Origin: Candidatus Eiseniibacteriota bacterium
GTDB lineage: Bacteria; JAFGKV01
Direction: 5' to 3'
NCBI GenBank assembly: GCA_025453925.1
Contig: JALOPK010000186.1
Span: 1 to 6,642, forward strand
DNA length: 6,642 nt
A model generated the notes under the pieces. The model did not search any database, was not told the DNA's origin, and saw only the letters and a program-made list of their open reading frames with translations. Positions 1 to 6,642 of the stretch are shown here, in pieces. Position numbers and translations under genes: made by a program. Numbering within the stretch: the first letter of the stretch is position 1; each line of letters opens with the position of its first letter.

Positions 1-1822
1 GGTGAGCAGCACCACCTCCGGTGGGTTGGCCGAACGCCCAGTCTCCTTCCGTCGTCCAGCCCGGGTCCTCATCCAGCAGCCACTGGTGGTACACCCGCTG
101 CGGGCCCACTGCCAGAATCACCTGCCGTGTCGTGTCGCCAAGGTGATCGGTGGTGTTGATGAACGAGACCGTCACCGAGTGCGCACCCTCCGGCAGCGCG
201 GCTGCCTCGTCCGCATTGATGCCGAACGTGATCTGCGTCGAGTCACCGGGAGGCAGCATGCCTCCCTGCGGCCCAGTGATCGCAAGCCAGGAGGGCACCG
301 AGTCGCATGAGACCTCATACTCGACCGCCTCCAGGGAGCGGTTGGTGATCGAGTAGACTGCTGTCGAGGGCTCGAACGGTCCGCTCACGTCTCCCGTCGG
401 CCTGAAGGCCCCCTCGGGGCTCACGCGGATACCGGTGTGGGTTCCCAACGCCTTGATGCAGAAGTTTGCGGTCGAGTCGGCGGCGTGCAGGTCCTCCCAC
501 TCACCACCGCTTCGATAGTAGCTCTGCCCGGGTTGAGAGGAAGACTCCACGATCACTCGGTACGATGCCCCCAGGAGCACCGGGATGTCCGAGGTGCGGT
601 CGAACGGCTGGCCCCCACGCGACAGGGAGAGGAAGATGTAGAAGTTCTCGCCGGAACGCACCTGGATCGGGCTCAACAGGTTCACCGTATGGAAGCCCCG
701 GTATTGGATGAATCCCGACACACTCCCCAAAGCGCCTGACAGCTCCCCGTCAAACCCGTCGTAGATGGTCGCCTGATACTCCACGGTGTCGGCGGCGGTG
801 CAGAAGCTCACCGCCTCGATCAACTCGTCATCCGCTGCGCTAAAGGCGTTCAAGGCTTCGGTGCAGTCAGCCATCGTGTCGCGCCACCCGTGGTAGTCGT
901 GGGAGTAGATCGCGTCGTAGCGCAGCGGCTCCACCCCCTGGAACGACACCGCACCCATCTGCGGATGCTGACCGCACCACTTGTCGTAGTATGAGATCCA
1001 GAAGAAGCCTTCGTTTCCCCACTCAGTTCCCCAACTGTTCTTGCATAGCCATGCCCCGGGACCGGGCGCCGGCGTGATCTTCGCATCATCCCAGCCCACG
1101 ATAGCGACCGCATGGTTCGGATCGAGGTTGCTCCCCGGTGGCTGGTACTGGATGAAGTCGCCGCTCATGAAGCCTGAGCCGTGACACATGCACGTGCCCA
1201 TGACGCCGTGTTCCATGACCGCATACTTGATGGTGTTGATGTTGGAGAGATCATCCCCCGCTGTGTACCATTCGATGTCCCGAGGCACGTAGAGATGGTA
1301 GCCAGTCTCCCAACGGTCTGACGCTTCCTCGAACGACTGACCGTCGATGTCGCGCACCGCTCCCTCACCCCGCGCCAGGTAAGCTTCGGTGACCATGTAG
1401 TCGCCGCCTTGATGCACGGTCAGTCCGCTGCCTGTTGGTGGCACGATGTCGTCGTTGTTGTGCTGGTTGAAGCCGTTCCACCAGTCCAGGTGGTACTCGG
1501 CGAGATCTGGTTCTCCCACCTCTCCGTTCGCCGCCCAGGCGCCGGTCATCGCCAGGTTGCCCTCCATGGCAGCCATGGCGCCGTGGGTCCAGCACGTGCC
1601 TCCCTGCTGCGACTTCACAGAGGTCACGTAGTTGAGACCATTGACGTCGCGCAGGTCGAATGAGGCTGGGGGTTGCGCCAAGCCCGCCCAGGGGATGGCG
1701 GCGACGCAGAATGCGACCAGGACTGCCGGCCGGCTTCGTGTCGGCCGTCGGCCGCTCAAAGGTCCGCCTGGTGGCCTCTGGGAAACGGGGTCAGTTCCAA
1801 ACTCACGATTTGGCGTGGGCAC
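1..1822 (-). CDS. Secreted papain-like (C1A) cysteine peptidase with lectin-like and BACON-like domains, 3' end beyond window
   Basis: Exported endopeptidase of the papain superfamily; 607 codons are visible and no stop is reached. Numbering from the GTG at 1822: hydrophobic signal segment about 33-49 ending GLA before QPP; catalytic Cys77 in SQQGGTCWTHGAM, His237 in DPNHAVAIVGWDD and Asn262 in CKNSWGTEWGNEGFFWISY, so the triad is complete. Residues about 301-460 resemble the lectin-like domain that follows such peptidases in bacteria and archaea. Residues about 463-573 form an Ig/BACON-like beta domain with ITN, SWLAITG, LPPGDS and VSFINTT motifs. From 577 a new domain begins (LDEDPGWTTEGDWAFGQP) and is cut by the edge. 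No ATG precedes the catalytic Cys, so the start is non-ATG. GTG 1822 has AGGGG 8 bases upstream and lies 11 bases after the previous stop, suggesting translational coupling. TTG 1759 (AGGCGG upstream) would give a more normal signal peptide. The family call is firm, the start is not. Confidence 0.9.
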   Translation of the reverse strand, partial: MPTPNREFGTDPVSQRPPGGPLSGRRPTRSRPAVLVAFCVAAIPWAGLAQPPASFDLRDVNGLNYVTSVKSQQGGTCWTHGAMAAMEGNLAMTGAWAANGEVGEPDLAEYHLDWWNGFNQHNNDDIVPPTGSGLTVHQGGDYMVTEAYLARGEGAVRDIDGQSFEEASDRWETGYHLYVPRDIEWYTAGDDLSNINTIKYAVMEHGVMGTCMCHGSGFMSGDFIQYQPPGSNLDPNHAVAIVGWDDAKITPAPGPGAWLCKNSWGTEWGNEGFFWISYYDKWCGQHPQMGAVSFQGVEPLRYDAIYSHDYHGWRDTMADCTEALNAFSAADDELIEAVSFCTAADTVEYQATIYDGFDGELSGALGSVSGFIQYRGFHTVNLLSPIQVRSGENFYIFLSLSRGGQPFDRTSDIPVLLGASYRVIVESSSQPGQSYYRSGGEWEDLHAADSTANFCIKALGTHTGIRVSPEGAFRPTGDVSGPFEPSTAVYSITNRSLEAVEYEVSCDSVPSWLAITGPQGGMLPPGDSTQITFGINADEAAALPEGAHSVTVSFINTTDHLGDTTRQVILAVGPQRVYHQWLLDEDPGWTTEGDWAFGQPTGGGAAH

Positions 1823-1833
1823 AGCTCCAACCC

Positions 1834-4242
1834 CTACTCCAGCAGGATTACCTTCCTTGCGTCCGCCGCCTTGAGCCCATTCGCCTGCACCCGTAACAAG
1901 TAGGCTCCCGTTGGCACCGGCCCCCCATCGATCCCTCGAATCTGCCACGTCACGGCATGCGACCCCTCGTGATCGGGCATACCCCCCAAGGAGGCTACCT
2001 GGCGCCCAAGAAGATCGTACAGACCGAGCGAGATCGGACCGTGGGCGCCCGAGGGCAGGGCGCCAACCGCGTAGCTGACCCTCGCCGCGCCAGCGACAGG
2101 GTTCGGGCTCACAGCCAGCAATTGCAGGGGCCCGGGCGATAGAACGATCCATCGGCCTTCTCCCTCGCTCGGATCCCAGTACGCGTATCTGAGGTCACCT
2201 TTCGACAGGTCATGATAGGCTATGTGAGGGACATCATTCTCGTCCAACGCAATCGAGGGGGAAGAGCCGACGTTTCCGATGCTGTCAACCACTTGGTGGT
2301 GCCATCCGGAGGCATCCAGCCAGGCATACTTCAGATTGCCGTTTGTCGCGTCATAGTGGGCAATGCGAGGACGGCCATTCGAATCGAGCGCGATCGACGT
2401 CCCCCAGCCGACTCTCCCGATGCTGTCGACGGTCTGGATGTGCCAGCCAGATGCATCCACGTAGGCGTAGCGAAGATCATCGTCACCGGCGAGGTAGCTC
2501 ACGTGAGGACAATCGGCCGTGTCGATGGTGTCGATGGTGATGTCGATGCCTCCCTTCACGTTGTCCCTGTCCAAGACTTCGGTGAACCAGCCTTGCTGGT
2601 CCCTCCTCGCGTACTTTAGGTCGTTGGCAGGTGAAGCATAGTGCACAACGTGAACCCTTCCGATCGAGTCGAGAGCGATCTCAGTGGATCTGCCGCCTTC
2701 GCCGCTGGCGTCCACGGTCTCCACAACCCATCCCCCACCATCATCGTGCGCATACTTCAGCCGGTTGTTGTCAGAGTCTTGGTAGCTGACATGCGGATAG
2801 CCGGATGCGTCAAGCGACAGAGAGGCATAGGCACCGACGCTCCCAACGGCATCGACCACGTCGATGTGCCATCCCGAACCATTATGGAAGGCGTACTTTA
2901 GATCGCTGGTCGACGCATCCCAATAGCTGATCCGCGGCCAGCCTTCCGGACTCAACGCCAGACAGTCGTACTGGCCGACCCACCCTTCGGTATCGACCAC
3001 AGAGTGGTGCCAACCCGACTCATCCTCGGAAGTGTACCGTAGTTCGCCTCGTAGCACATCGCAGTGGGAGATGCACGCGAATCCAGCGTCATCAAGTGCC
3101 AGCGACGGTTGGTGCCCTGCGACCGCACACGTGTCGACGGTGGCAATGCCCCAGGTCCCGCCTGCCGAACTCGCATACCTCACTCGCTGGTTCGTCCAGT
3201 CGTAGTACACGACGTGAAGGACGTTCGCCACGCCTTCCGCGAGTCCCCCGCTCGAACCCACGTCCCCACTCCCGTCCACTATCTCGACTTGCCAGGCACC
3301 CTCTGCACGCCAGGCATGCCGGAGCGATCCATTCGTCGCATCCAGGTAGCAGATGTGGGGGTATCCGTTCGTGTCCAACCTGAGGGAGGCGAACTCTCCG
3401 ACATCCCCCTGCGAGTCGACGACCTCGATCCTCCACTGCACGCCGTCCGACTTGGCGAACTTCAGGTCGCGGCTCTCGCCGTCCACGTAGGCAACGCAGG
3501 GGTCGCCTCCCCCGTCCAAGGCTAGCGAGGGGTGCGTACCGACTGCACCCTCCCCGTCGACAACACGTACGTCCCACCAGATGCCTTCGTGGTAAGCATA
3601 CTTGAGGTCCTGGTTGGTGAGGTCCCAATAGGCGAGGTGCCTGTCTCCATCTTCCTCGACAATCAACGAGGAGTAGGGGCCGACGATACCCTCGGTGTCG
3701 ATGGCCTCGACGAGCCAATAGCCACCTTCCTTGTGGGCATACTTCATGTCCCCGTTCGTGTAGTCGTAGTAGCTGATGTGGGGAAGGCCCTGCGCGTCTA
3801 TGCACAGCGAGCTACTCAGGCCAACACTGCCTGCGCTGTCGACGACCTCGAGGTGCCACCCCGCCGCGTCCTCATACGCATAGGTGAGGTCCTCTTCGAA
3901 CGCGCCAATGCCGGAGCAAAAGCTGACATGAGGATGGCCCCCGTCGTCGAGCACAAAGGAGTGTCCGCCCAGGGGGGCTTCCGCGCACTGGTCGACCACG
4001 ACCGATCGCCAGTCCACACCGTCATGCCAGTAATGGTAGAGGTTGTCACTACCACAGACCATATGTGGACGGCCCGCGGCGTCGCACTGGATCAGGCGCT
4101 CGCCGAGCAGGTCGATCTCACGGGGACACTCGACACCCTGCACTACCCAGCCTCCTGCGTGCGAGAGACCCGCAAGCGCCATCAAGAGAACCGGATAGAC
4201 GCAGACGCCGGAGCTTCGATCCCTCCCTTCGTCTCGCTGCAC
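1834..4242 (-). CDS. Secreted 14-repeat beta-propeller-like protein with FlgD/Por-type C-terminal domain
   Basis: Exported protein of 802 residues with no recognisable catalytic motif. The start chosen is GTG 4242, because AAGGAGG lies exactly 8 bases upstream; an upstream in-frame TTG (4263) lacks such a site. Residues 1-29 form a signal peptide (VYPVLLMALAGLSHA, then GG). Residues about 44-700 are fourteen tandem units of about 47 residues with the pattern SLALD..G.PHISY.D..N.DLKYA....GW...VVD..G.VG. Residues about 701-802 contain VSPNP, LGLYDLLGRQVA and PTGAYLLRV, typical of FlgD-like/type 9 sorting-type C-terminal domains of FCB bacteria, implying surface delivery. Fourteen units would suit two seven-bladed propellers, but that fold is inference. 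It is followed 11 bases later by the peptidase gene. The 126-base gap to the upstream thioredoxin gene shows no clear promoter or terminator. Likely roles are binding or adhesion; the function is unknown. Confidence 0.9.
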   Translation of the reverse strand: MQRDEGRDRSSGVCVYPVLLMALAGLSHAGGWVVQGVECPREIDLLGERLIQCDAAGRPHMVCGSDNLYHYWHDGVDWRSVVVDQCAEAPLGGHSFVLDDGGHPHVSFCSGIGAFEEDLTYAYEDAAGWHLEVVDSAGSVGLSSSLCIDAQGLPHISYYDYTNGDMKYAHKEGGYWLVEAIDTEGIVGPYSSLIVEEDGDRHLAYWDLTNQDLKYAYHEGIWWDVRVVDGEGAVGTHPSLALDGGGDPCVAYVDGESRDLKFAKSDGVQWRIEVVDSQGDVGEFASLRLDTNGYPHICYLDATNGSLRHAWRAEGAWQVEIVDGSGDVGSSGGLAEGVANVLHVVYYDWTNQRVRYASSAGGTWGIATVDTCAVAGHQPSLALDDAGFACISHCDVLRGELRYTSEDESGWHHSVVDTEGWVGQYDCLALSPEGWPRISYWDASTSDLKYAFHNGSGWHIDVVDAVGSVGAYASLSLDASGYPHVSYQDSDNNRLKYAHDDGGGWVVETVDASGEGGRSTEIALDSIGRVHVVHYASPANDLKYARRDQQGWFTEVLDRDNVKGGIDITIDTIDTADCPHVSYLAGDDDLRYAYVDASGWHIQTVDSIGRVGWGTSIALDSNGRPRIAHYDATNGNLKYAWLDASGWHHQVVDSIGNVGSSPSIALDENDVPHIAYHDLSKGDLRYAYWDPSEGEGRWIVLSPGPLQLLAVSPNPVAGAARVSYAVGALPSGAHGPISLGLYDLLGRQVASLGGMPDHEGSHAVTWQIRGIDGGPVPTGAYLLRVQANGLKAADARKVILLE
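2143..4113 (-). repeat. Fourteen tandem ~141-bp coding repeats
   Basis: Within the large repeat protein, units 3 to 11 and 13 are each exactly 47 residues (141 bp). Units 1, 2, 12 and 14 vary slightly. Conserved positions are a SLALD-type strand, PHISYYD, DLKYA, a GW pair and VVD..G.VG. The units are well diverged at DNA level. Unit 7 (LAEGVANVLHVVYYDW) is the most degenerate and unit 12 is 48 residues. Confidence 0.9.
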
Positions 4243-4250
4243 GTTCACAG

Positions 4251-4368: not shown

Positions 4369-4962
4369 CTAACCCGGCACGCCTTTCACGTATCGCGCAA
4401 TGCGCAGCATTCCCTCAGTGTCCGTGGGACCGGGCCAGGAGGCCAGGACCACGCCATCCTTGCTCACCAAAAGAGTTGAAGGAGTGCCCTTGATCCCGAG
4501 CGTCTCCTCCAGGTGGAAACCTTTCGGGATCCAACCCACCTCAAGAGCTTGAGCGGGCCAGTCGGCCGTGAACGGCTCATCATCACCCTGAGACTCGGCC
4601 AATGCGAGCATCCGAATCCCAGCGGGGAGCTCCTGGGCCATCCGCTCCCAGAGAGAAAATGCCACCTGGCACGCTGGGCAGTTAGGGGAGAAGATCGCGA
4701 GAACATAGCAGCGAACTGCCGGATCGTCATAGGTGATGACGGCGTCGACGCCGGAACCGTCTTGGTACGGGATCACTGAGAATTGCTCGCCAGCCAAGGG
4801 GAGCGGAAGCGGGGGAACTCGGGCCTGACTGGCCACCCGTTCCTTCAGCGTTCTGTTCTGAGCCGCTAGCAGTGAACACAACACGGCAAGGGCCAGGGCC
4901 GCCGCGTAGGAGTACAGCGAACTCGGCCCTTGCTTTCTGATCCCGTCAGCGGCGCGTCCCAC
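4369..4962 (-). CDS. Membrane-anchored thioredoxin-fold (TlpA/redoxin-like) oxidoreductase
   Basis: Predicted thiol-disulfide oxidoreductase acting on the outer side of the inner membrane; 197 residues from GTG 4962. A short basic stretch (GRAADGIRKQG) precedes one membrane helix at about residues 16-34 (LYSYAAALALAVLCSLLAA), which suggests an N-in, C-out anchor. The thioredoxin-like domain follows: IFSPNCPACQVAF carries the redox pair Cys95-Pro-Ala-Cys98, and GIKGTPSTLLVSKDG supplies the conserved cis-proline at about 161. The size and anchor match TlpA/ResA-like proteins; CPAC is not the classical DsbA or TrxA dipeptide, so the direction of the reaction is uncertain. The frame is open further upstream to a TTG at 5085 that would overlap the peptide gene. 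GTG 4962 is preferred because GGAGG lies just upstream and the reading upstream of it contains a hairpin and is not protein-like. Its neighbour encodes an eight-cysteine secreted peptide, a plausible substrate. Confidence 0.85.
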   Translation of the reverse strand: MGRAADGIRKQGPSSLYSYAAALALAVLCSLLAAQNRTLKERVASQARVPPLPLPLAGEQFSVIPYQDGSGVDAVITYDDPAVRCYVLAIFSPNCPACQVAFSLWERMAQELPAGIRMLALAESQGDDEPFTADWPAQALEVGWIPKGFHLEETLGIKGTPSTLLVSKDGVVLASWPGPTDTEGMLRIARYVKGVPG

Positions 4963-4966
4963 CGTA

Positions 4967-4971
4967 CCTCC
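4967..4971 (-). promoter_or_regulatory. Shine-Dalgarno site for the thioredoxin-like gene
   Basis: GGAGG on the minus strand, 4 bases before GTG 4962. It is the best ribosome site in the region and lies 4 bases downstream of the intercistronic hairpin. It supports the shorter start. Confidence 0.55.
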
Positions 4972-4975
4972 GTGG

Positions 4976-5017
4976 CCCGCGGCATGGGGCGCTGAAGCGC
5001 CTTCCCCACACCGCGGG
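4976..5017 (-). promoter_or_regulatory. Intercistronic RNA hairpin between peptide and thioredoxin genes
   Basis: Read as minus-strand RNA, 12 bases at each end pair completely (CCCGCGGUGUGG with CCAUGCCGCGGG, including two adjacent G-U wobbles). A 4-base bulge GGAA follows, then a 5-bp stem GGCGC/GCGCC closed by UUCA. On the opposite strand the two wobbles become A-C mismatches, so the fold favours the minus-strand transcript. No U-run follows, so it is not a classical terminator. A role in processing, stability or translation of the downstream gene is inference. Confidence 0.6.
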
Positions 5018-5065
5018 ACGGGTTCTGTCAATCTCCGACGCGCTCGAACAGTGCCGCACAGTGCG

Positions 5066-5332
5066 TCACTCGTTGGGGCACTCAATCATGTAGCACTGCA
5101 ATCCCTGCTGGGCCTGAGGCCAGCAGCACCAGTCGTCACTGGTGGGTTCGTAGCAAGCGTAGAGCCGAGAGGGATTGGAGTTGCAGCATTGGTCAGTCCA
5201 GACCACATAGCTCGGGTAGTGTGAGAGACACCAGTCCAGGGCCTGGGCGGGCGTTGGGATCAGGAGTGCGAGCACCCCGACGAGGGATGATAGCACGAAG
5301 ACCGCCAGTAGAAGGGCTCGGAGAGTTCGCAT
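5066..5332 (-). CDS. Small secreted cysteine-rich peptide precursor, 88 aa
   Basis: Not a family I recognise. From ATG 5332 the product has a strong signal peptide (MRTLRALLLAVFVLSSLVGVLALLIPTPAQA), with likely cleavage after Ala31. The mature part is about 57 residues, rich in aromatic residues, with eight cysteines at 35, 49, 50, 60, 69, 70, 80 and 85. Two stretches share the pattern CC-x9-CY (49-61 and 69-81), 20 residues apart and each preceded by an acidic residue, like an internal duplication. The frame is open upstream to 5584, but that part is not protein-like and would bury the signal peptide. GTG 5362, with GAGG 9 bases upstream, is an alternative start. The ribosome site before ATG 5332 is weak (AGG). 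The stop lies 103 bases before the thioredoxin-like gene, whose product could form its disulfides. Metal binding is the other obvious use of the CC pairs. Confidence 0.72.
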   Translation of the reverse strand: MRTLRALLLAVFVLSSLVGVLALLIPTPAQALDWCLSHYPSYVVWTDQCCNSNPSRLYACYEPTSDDWCCWPQAQQGLQCYMIECPNE

Positions 5333-5539
5333 GACGTGCCTGCGTTCGCGCTTGGTGACCACCGGGACAATCCTCGCCGTCTCTGAGCATGACGCGTGTC
5401 GCCACGGGGCCGGGCGTGGCCGACCACGGACGGTACAGCACCCCGGGCAGAAAGCCGCTCCTCCTTTCCTCTCAGGCAGTTCAGGCCTCCGCCGTAGCAT
5501 CAGACCGCGCACCCAAAGGCAACCGGCAGCAGGGTGGCA
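5333..5539 (-). other. Probable long untranslated leader of the peptide gene
   Basis: About 200 bases between the predicted promoter and ATG 5332 with no convincing gene. It holds a perfect AAGGAGG at 5460-5466 (minus strand) with no ATG, GTG or TTG at a normal distance behind it. Open frames here are arginine/proline-rich and lack family features. Confidence 0.4.
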
Positions 5540-6030: not shown

Positions 6031-6064
6031 GGGGGAAGGATAGGGTGGGTGAAGGGAAAAGGGG
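6031..6064 (+). promoter_or_regulatory. Potential G-quadruplex in purine-rich leader
   Basis: Plus-strand G runs at 6031-6035, 6043-6045, 6047-6049, 6054-6056 and 6061-6064 are separated by loops of 7, 1, 4 and 4 bases. The last four satisfy the canonical four-run rule with short loops. The motif ends 19 bases before the ATG at 6084, so it would fall in the leader of the right-hand gene. Folding is not shown by sequence alone. Confidence 0.5.
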
Positions 6065-6083
6065 ACACGCCAGTCAACGAGCA

Positions 6084-6642
6084 ATGAGGAATGCAGCGGC
6101 TTTGAGCCGCCCCCAATCAAATGCCCCCGGCTTTGCCGGGGGATGGCTTACGATCGCCAAAGCTCTTCTCTTCGTTGCCGTGATCCAACGGACGAATGTG
6201 CTCTTGGCAGCTCCTCAGGATTATGTCTGGAAGATGGCCGAGGTTGACTTTCCGAACTGGATCGCACAGATGCAGGACAGGGGCCTCGCAATTGACGCAG
6301 CAGGACATCCTCACCTTGTCTACGGGGGAGAGGGTCTCGTGCACGCCTGGCACGATGGCACGGGGTGGTTCCGGGAAGTCGTGGATCCGTCACCGTCTGT
6401 TGGCAGCTATGCCTCGTTGGCCATCGGCATCCGGGACCGCCTCCACATCAGTTACTACGACGCAGCCAACCAGGATCTGCGATATGCCCTCCGGGACTCG
6501 ACGGGCTGGCATCTCGACGCTGTTGACGGGAATGGAGACGTCGGCATGCACTCGGCCATCGCCGTGGACGCGGTAGGCAATCCCCATATCAGCTATTGCG
6601 CCGCCGGAGCCTATGACTTGAAGTATGCAGTTGTTCACCCCG
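6084..6642 (+). CDS. Paralogous secreted repeat protein, 5' part only
   Basis: The frame is open to the right edge (186 codons from ATG 6084), and the last in-frame stop is at 5997. A hydrophobic export-type segment lies at about residues 21-43 (WLTIAKALLFVAVIQ, then TNVLLAA). From about residue 68 the product carries the same 47-residue unit as the large minus-strand protein: LAIDAAGHPHLVYGGEGLVHAWHDGTGW, then SYASLAI, HISYYDAANQDLRYAL, GWHLDAVDGNGDVG, and DAVGNPHISY with DLKYA. The first unit resembles the first unit of the other protein (CDAAGRPHMVC, YHYWHDGVDW), so the two are paralogues. The start is uncertain: ATG 6084, GTG 6045 and TTG 6102 are in frame and none has a clean ribosome site. 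From 6084, residues 4-20 are encoded by two hairpins (AALSRP and APGFAGG), an odd N-terminus that may be repeat-derived or partly untranslated. Confidence 0.8.
   Translation, partial: MRNAAALSRPQSNAPGFAGGWLTIAKALLFVAVIQRTNVLLAAPQDYVWKMAEVDFPNWIAQMQDRGLAIDAAGHPHLVYGGEGLVHAWHDGTGWFREVVDPSPSVGSYASLAIGIRDRLHISYYDAANQDLRYALRDSTGWHLDAVDGNGDVGMHSAIAVDAVGNPHISYCAAGAYDLKYAVVHP
6096..6110. repeat. Small perfect hairpin GCGGCT-TTG-AGCCGC
   Basis: A 6-bp perfect stem with a 3-base loop, 13 bases upstream of the larger GGCTTTGCC hairpin. It falls inside the predicted N-terminal coding part of the right-hand gene if translation starts at 6084. Confidence 0.45.
6124..6142. repeat. Perfect hairpin CCCCCGGC-TTT-GCCGGGGG
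   Basis: An 8-bp perfect stem with a TTT loop, a near copy of the element at 5849-5866. No T-run follows on the plus strand (ATGGCTTA), so it is not a convincing terminator. It is read through as APGFAGG in the right-hand gene from the ATG at 6084. Confidence 0.6.

Follow-up and report, generated by a model that had tools for sequence, protein, structure and literature searches.

The thiol reductases ResA and TlpA serve apocytochrome c and copper-site proteins, respectively, and the MauA light chain is a small, exported, disulfide-rich protein that is encoded near a membrane-anchored thioredoxin-like protein. Sublancin is a small exported cysteine-containing peptide with a double-glycine leader; it comes with an ABC exporter, a glycosyltransferase and two neighbouring thiol oxidoreductases, BdbA and BdbB. 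The NVEALA peptides of the Bacteroidota, which belong to a related superphylum, are short exported cysteine-containing proteins. MauE and MauD have a role in the maturation of methylamine dehydrogenase (PMC7794033), and SdbA of Streptococcus gordonii, a member of the AhpC/TSA family, acts as an oxidase and makes disulfides with no known regenerating partner (PMC12453122). There are obligate anaerobes that have few disulfide proteins, folded by DsbA-like enzymes that have no regenerating partner (PMC12453122). The 6,642-nucleotide stretch of DNA analysed here (the window), from an uncultured bacterium, carries a gene for a small exported cysteine-rich protein next to one for a putative thioredoxin-fold oxidoreductase, and below we compare this pair with these systems.

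The eight-cysteine mini-protein gene occupies positions 5066–5332 on the minus strand (its homologue, see below, is at loci L004 and L038); there the minus-strand frame is open for 88 codons and the plus-strand frame is interrupted by stops. Its 88-amino acid product consists of the signal peptide MRTLRALLLAVFVLSSLVGVLALLIPTPAQA followed by the mature part LDWCLSHYPSYVVWTDQCCNSNPSRLYACYEPTSDDWCCWPQAQQGLQCYMIECPNE. The Sec-type signal peptide (residues 1–31; 5240–5332, minus strand) was read by eye and ends in A-Q-A, with cleavage before LDWC, and this A-x-A/LDWC export junction is common to the homologue, where it reads A-S-A. The mature part (5069–5239, minus strand) has 57 residues and carries C35, C49, C50, C60, C69, C70, C80 and C85; the sequence-only reading had given both this length and the spacing C-x13-CC-x9-C-x8-CC-x9-C-x4-C exactly, and had placed an ORF with a signal peptide here correctly. 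The candidate starts are ATG at 5332 and GTG at 5362, and the alignment with the homologue begins at the ATG.

At least eight cysteines are found in 5 of 8,870 open 57-codon frames of dinucleotide-matched random DNA, so the composition of the mini-protein is unusual. Identity between the window gene and its homologue is 0.47, 0.57 and 0.25 at codon positions 1, 2 and 3, which is the pattern of a translated frame. Codon usage is weak for the mini-protein and oxidoreductase genes in both genomes, and by itself it neither supports nor rejects coding. It could be argued from this weak codon usage, and from the failure to find a strong ribosome-binding site ahead of the window copy, that the ORF is no gene at all, but the neighbouring enzyme gene has codon usage just as weak, conservation falls mainly on codon positions 1 and 2, and the homologue shares the export signal, the cysteines and the neighbour gene. 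A non-gene is strongly disfavoured, to the point of being negligible, and judged by these comparisons the ORF is a real gene.

When 98 related genomes were searched by tblastn, the homologue was the one good match beyond the window (E 4e-5); it belongs to a second genus of the family. Its ORF of 89 residues, MKIFSAAICGLALVALTAGWLMLFHSPASA (signal) followed by LDWCYHGDGQSAWCNSCWNAGRPFFCREHGYGNPWCCYTSSQNPAYYQCTGGCPFPVQN (mature), stands behind the sequence AAGGAGG on contig JAUXFG010000233.1 of Candidatus Fermentibacteria isolate CSMAG_2897, which assigns the window to this phylum. The two proteins are 33% identical and share the order of their eight cysteines, seven of which are aligned by MAFFT; the homologue's spacing is C-x9-C-x2-C-x8-C-x9-CC-x11-C-x3-C. 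Of 3,000 full shuffles not one reached the alignment score of the mature parts, and of 3,000 shuffles with the cysteines fixed a single one did; with a BLASTP E value of 3e-4, the mature parts are by these measures related beyond composition. The sequence-only reading had looked to homologues that keep the eight cysteines and the duplicated spacing as support for a new family, and to a lack of cysteine-conserving homologues in related genomes as its refutation; a homologue with eight cysteines does exist, in only one other genus and not in the same-genus genome, and its spacing differs, with one CC pair.

A two-sequence profile run against 386 genomes returned the two members and one weak match (E 0.0074), and of the other weak single-sequence tblastn matches, two that were inspected, at loci L002 and L005, have no comparable ORF. 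We found no relatives in the viral contigs or plasmids searched, and a scan of ~1.19 Mb of the three genomes that make up the sampling of the Fermentibacteria turned up no other such protein outside the larger genes. The mini-protein has no family match in Pfam, NCBIfam or PDB sequences, the homologue's sole NCBIfam match is a weak one to a polyprenyltransferase within the signal region, and an Rfam search gave no match. Its structure model is poor (pLDDT 61.5), and a structure search with this poor model gave no match; a literature search for small cysteine-rich proteins with thioredoxin-like partners returned only unrelated papers. These searches and the eight cysteines of the homologue support the earlier description of a secreted mini-protein with eight cysteines that belongs to no named family, and the protein is best read, from its sequence, as a lineage-restricted exported cysteine-rich protein. 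We note that the NVEALA peptides (PF14055) are likewise short, exported and cysteine-containing, but membership was rejected, as their model matched nothing in the three genomes at E ≤ 1 or in the Pfam scans; a literature search on these peptides found nothing.

The two CC-x9-CY units of the window protein had been taken for a doubled disulfide module, a claim that did not survive. Self-similarity at an offset of 20 residues is no better than that of shuffled sequences (p = 0.16 for full shuffles and 0.40 with the cysteines fixed), and the homologue has neither a repeated unit nor any CC-x9-CY unit. An internal duplication is rejected on this non-significant self-alignment and on the homologue's spacing, and the doubled motif most probably arose by chance in this single sequence.

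The next gene downstream of the mini-protein gene, on the same strand, encodes a putative membrane-anchored thioredoxin-fold oxidoreductase (4369–4962, minus strand); its ORF spans 4369–5085 and its probable start is GTG at 4962, behind GGAGG. The CPAC active-site motif (4669–4680, minus strand) is invariant in the enzyme alignment, an N-terminal helix (residues 11–41, hydrophobic by sequence) is predicted, and the second-genus homologue is 34% identical. Foldseek matches of the predicted structure (pLDDT 70.7) include pneumococcal Etrx1, ResA and TlpA, with E values down to 1.3e-7, and a PDB profile search found DsbE-type proteins (E 2.5e-7). The enzyme homologue is matched by the ResA model NF002854 (E 1.8e-6; 28 bits, below the cut-off of 170), by the MauD model TIGR02661 (E 1.1e-4; 21.8 bits, below the cut-off of 188.6) and by the DsbE model; the window copy has no match to the MauD model. 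The predicted fold, CxxC active site and N-terminal anchor are those of TlpA/ResA/MauD-like oxidoreductases.

The window enzyme shares a predicted N-terminal anchor, a CPxC active site and a predicted fold with the ResA, DsbE and TlpA oxidoreductases; it differs in scoring below the curated cut-offs and in having a cysteine-rich mini-protein as its partner, rather than a cytochrome c or copper-site gene. The likeness to MauA with MauD and MauE lies in a small exported cysteine-rich protein encoded near a membrane-anchored thioredoxin-like protein, but the MauD score of the enzyme homologue is far below the cut-off, neither MauE nor a dehydrogenase gene was seen beside the window enzyme, and the window protein falls in no Pfam or NCBIfam family. 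SdbA may be compared for its thioredoxin fold, and differs in having a Gram-positive host.

The cysteine protein gene is followed by the oxidoreductase gene on the same strand in two genera of the family, with different flanking genes, and each of the two genomes has one strong full-length match to each gene. This conserved neighbour, which offers the strongest lead on the mechanism of the mini-protein, was overlooked in the sequence-only reading, which had the exported eight-cysteine part of the peptide right. In the window the pair is followed by a propeller-like protein and then a papain-like protease, and the other genome has different flanks. About 100 bases separate the two window genes, which makes their co-transcription uncertain, and no sigma-70-type promoter was found. 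In the same-genus genome G001 (94% complete) the oxidoreductase lies directly behind a propeller gene, the gene being cut by the contig end, and the cysteine protein was not detected; this would fit a chance neighbourhood, in which the cysteine protein would serve at the surface, in a structural or inhibitor-like role, with no link to the enzyme. Order and strand are, however, kept in two genera at ~33% identity between differing flanks, and we regard mere chance as quite unlikely. The oxidoreductase has distant relatives in other phyla, but beside these no comparable ORF for a small, exported, cysteine-rich protein was found.

A bacteriocin-like antimicrobial or signalling peptide, with the oxidoreductase as its maturation enzyme much as BdbA and BdbB are for sublancin, would fit a protein that is small, exported, cysteine-rich, diverged and, as far as sampled, confined to one lineage, and that has an adjoining thiol oxidoreductase. 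The signal here is of the ordinary Sec type, not a double-glycine leader, neither an ABC exporter nor a glycosyltransferase like those of sublancin was seen in the window, and no immunity, dedicated exporter or modification genes were recognised there, all of which makes such a peptide improbable.

That an exported eight-cysteine protein has a membrane-anchored CPAC oxidoreductase encoded behind it in two genera is most simply explained if the two are client and enzyme, and the mini-protein is best read as an exported cysteine protein under the redox control of its own thioredoxin-like partner. In the most likely mechanism, to which we give a probability of about one half, the mini-protein would be exported by Sec and trimmed behind A-x-A to a compact eight-cysteine domain of ~57 residues; the thioredoxin-fold enzyme, held on the outer side of the inner membrane by its single N-terminal helix, would use its CPAC site as a dedicated thiol-disulfide partner and form or reshuffle up to four disulfides, in a periplasm apparently devoid of a general disulfide-forming system; and the folded protein would then act outside the inner membrane. 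We infer that the mini-protein is a substrate of the enzyme, and that the enzyme works as an oxidase or isomerase rather than a reductase. SdbA and the DsbA-like enzymes of obligate anaerobes cited above are precedents. The client-enzyme reading is limited by the fact that only two members are known and that G001 has the oxidoreductase with the cysteine protein undetected, and also by the gap between the window genes and the poor structure model of the mini-protein. The nearest models, ResA and DsbE, are mostly reductases, which counts against the oxidase part, as do the DsbD/CcdA-type reductants present.

The Fermentibacteria have been described as strict anaerobes of the FCB superphylum (PMC5763382). 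A search of the three Fermentibacteria genomes (the window's own is 82% complete) found neither DsbB nor VKOR, and DsbD/CcdA-type proteins are present in all three. Where DsbA and DsbB/VKOR occur, exported proteins are reported to favour even cysteine counts (PMC12453122). Among proteins with 1–8 cysteines in ~1.19 Mb sampled from these incomplete genomes, even counts are found in 43 of 92 exported and 137 of 315 cytosolic proteins, as called by a simple home-made gene caller (which failed to pick up the mini-protein itself) and a home-made signal-peptide rule; there is no clear even-cysteine bias in the exported proteins. By the DsbB/VKOR search and the cysteine parity, a general disulfide system is not evident, so that a dedicated partner would be needed.

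The same setting favours a reductive alternative, in which the eight cysteines remain in reduced form as metal ligands and the partner is a DsbD/CcdA-fed reductase that keeps the thiols ready, much as ResA and TlpA do for their own targets; besides strict anaerobiosis, the failure to find DsbB and VKOR, the DsbD/CcdA-type proteins and the lack of a clear even-cysteine bias, it has in its favour that the top models and folds of the enzyme are of ResA, TlpA and DsbE types. The mini-protein, however, has no recognisable metal motif (CxxCH is absent and one His is conserved), its cysteine spacing drifts between the two homologues, and an exported stretch of 57 residues that holds eight cysteines, some of them as adjacent CC pairs, resembles a disulfide-stabilised mini-protein. 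The adjacent pairs and the drift in spacing make disulfides more likely than metal thiolates, and we consider the metal alternative possible but on the unlikely side.

If the client-enzyme reading is right, a TlpA-type enzyme gains a named client in a lineage that yielded no general disulfide-forming pathway, and the handling of cysteine-rich exported proteins by strict anaerobes becomes testable with two small genes; if the pairing alone is right, what remains is a new protein family, restricted to this lineage and with a strong hint as to its function. The more specific proposal of a private one-client disulfide (or thiolate-metal) system, in which the eight-cysteine protein and its own TlpA-type enzyme do without a general pathway, is rather unlikely as it stands and is offered very tentatively.

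Several other genes of these loci deserve mention. Two window genes (1834–4248, minus strand, and 6045–6641, plus strand) belong to one propeller-like repeat family, with a repeat unit like VVD..G.VG...SLALD..G.PHISYYD..N.DLKYA; the former has a BNR_4 match and a FlgD_ig-like tail, and a third copy in G001 (locus L035, 266–1726) lies directly before the oxidoreductase gene. The papain-family (C1) protease with a lectin-like domain (2–2152, minus strand) runs off the window end. Locus L043 of G001 has a truncated 3' part of a gene of the same oxidoreductase family (1489–1707, minus strand), possibly a remnant, which adjoins an ORF (1775–2245, plus strand) that by eye is PIN-domain toxin-like. 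In the second genus, a gene of weak agmatine-deiminase similarity (locus L038, 1461–2732, minus strand) lies upstream of the pair on the opposite strand. Finally, the window's genome encodes at L002 (177–3182, plus strand) what by eye is a fused ResB/CcsA-type cytochrome c biogenesis protein, which would fit a role for ResA-like enzymes there.
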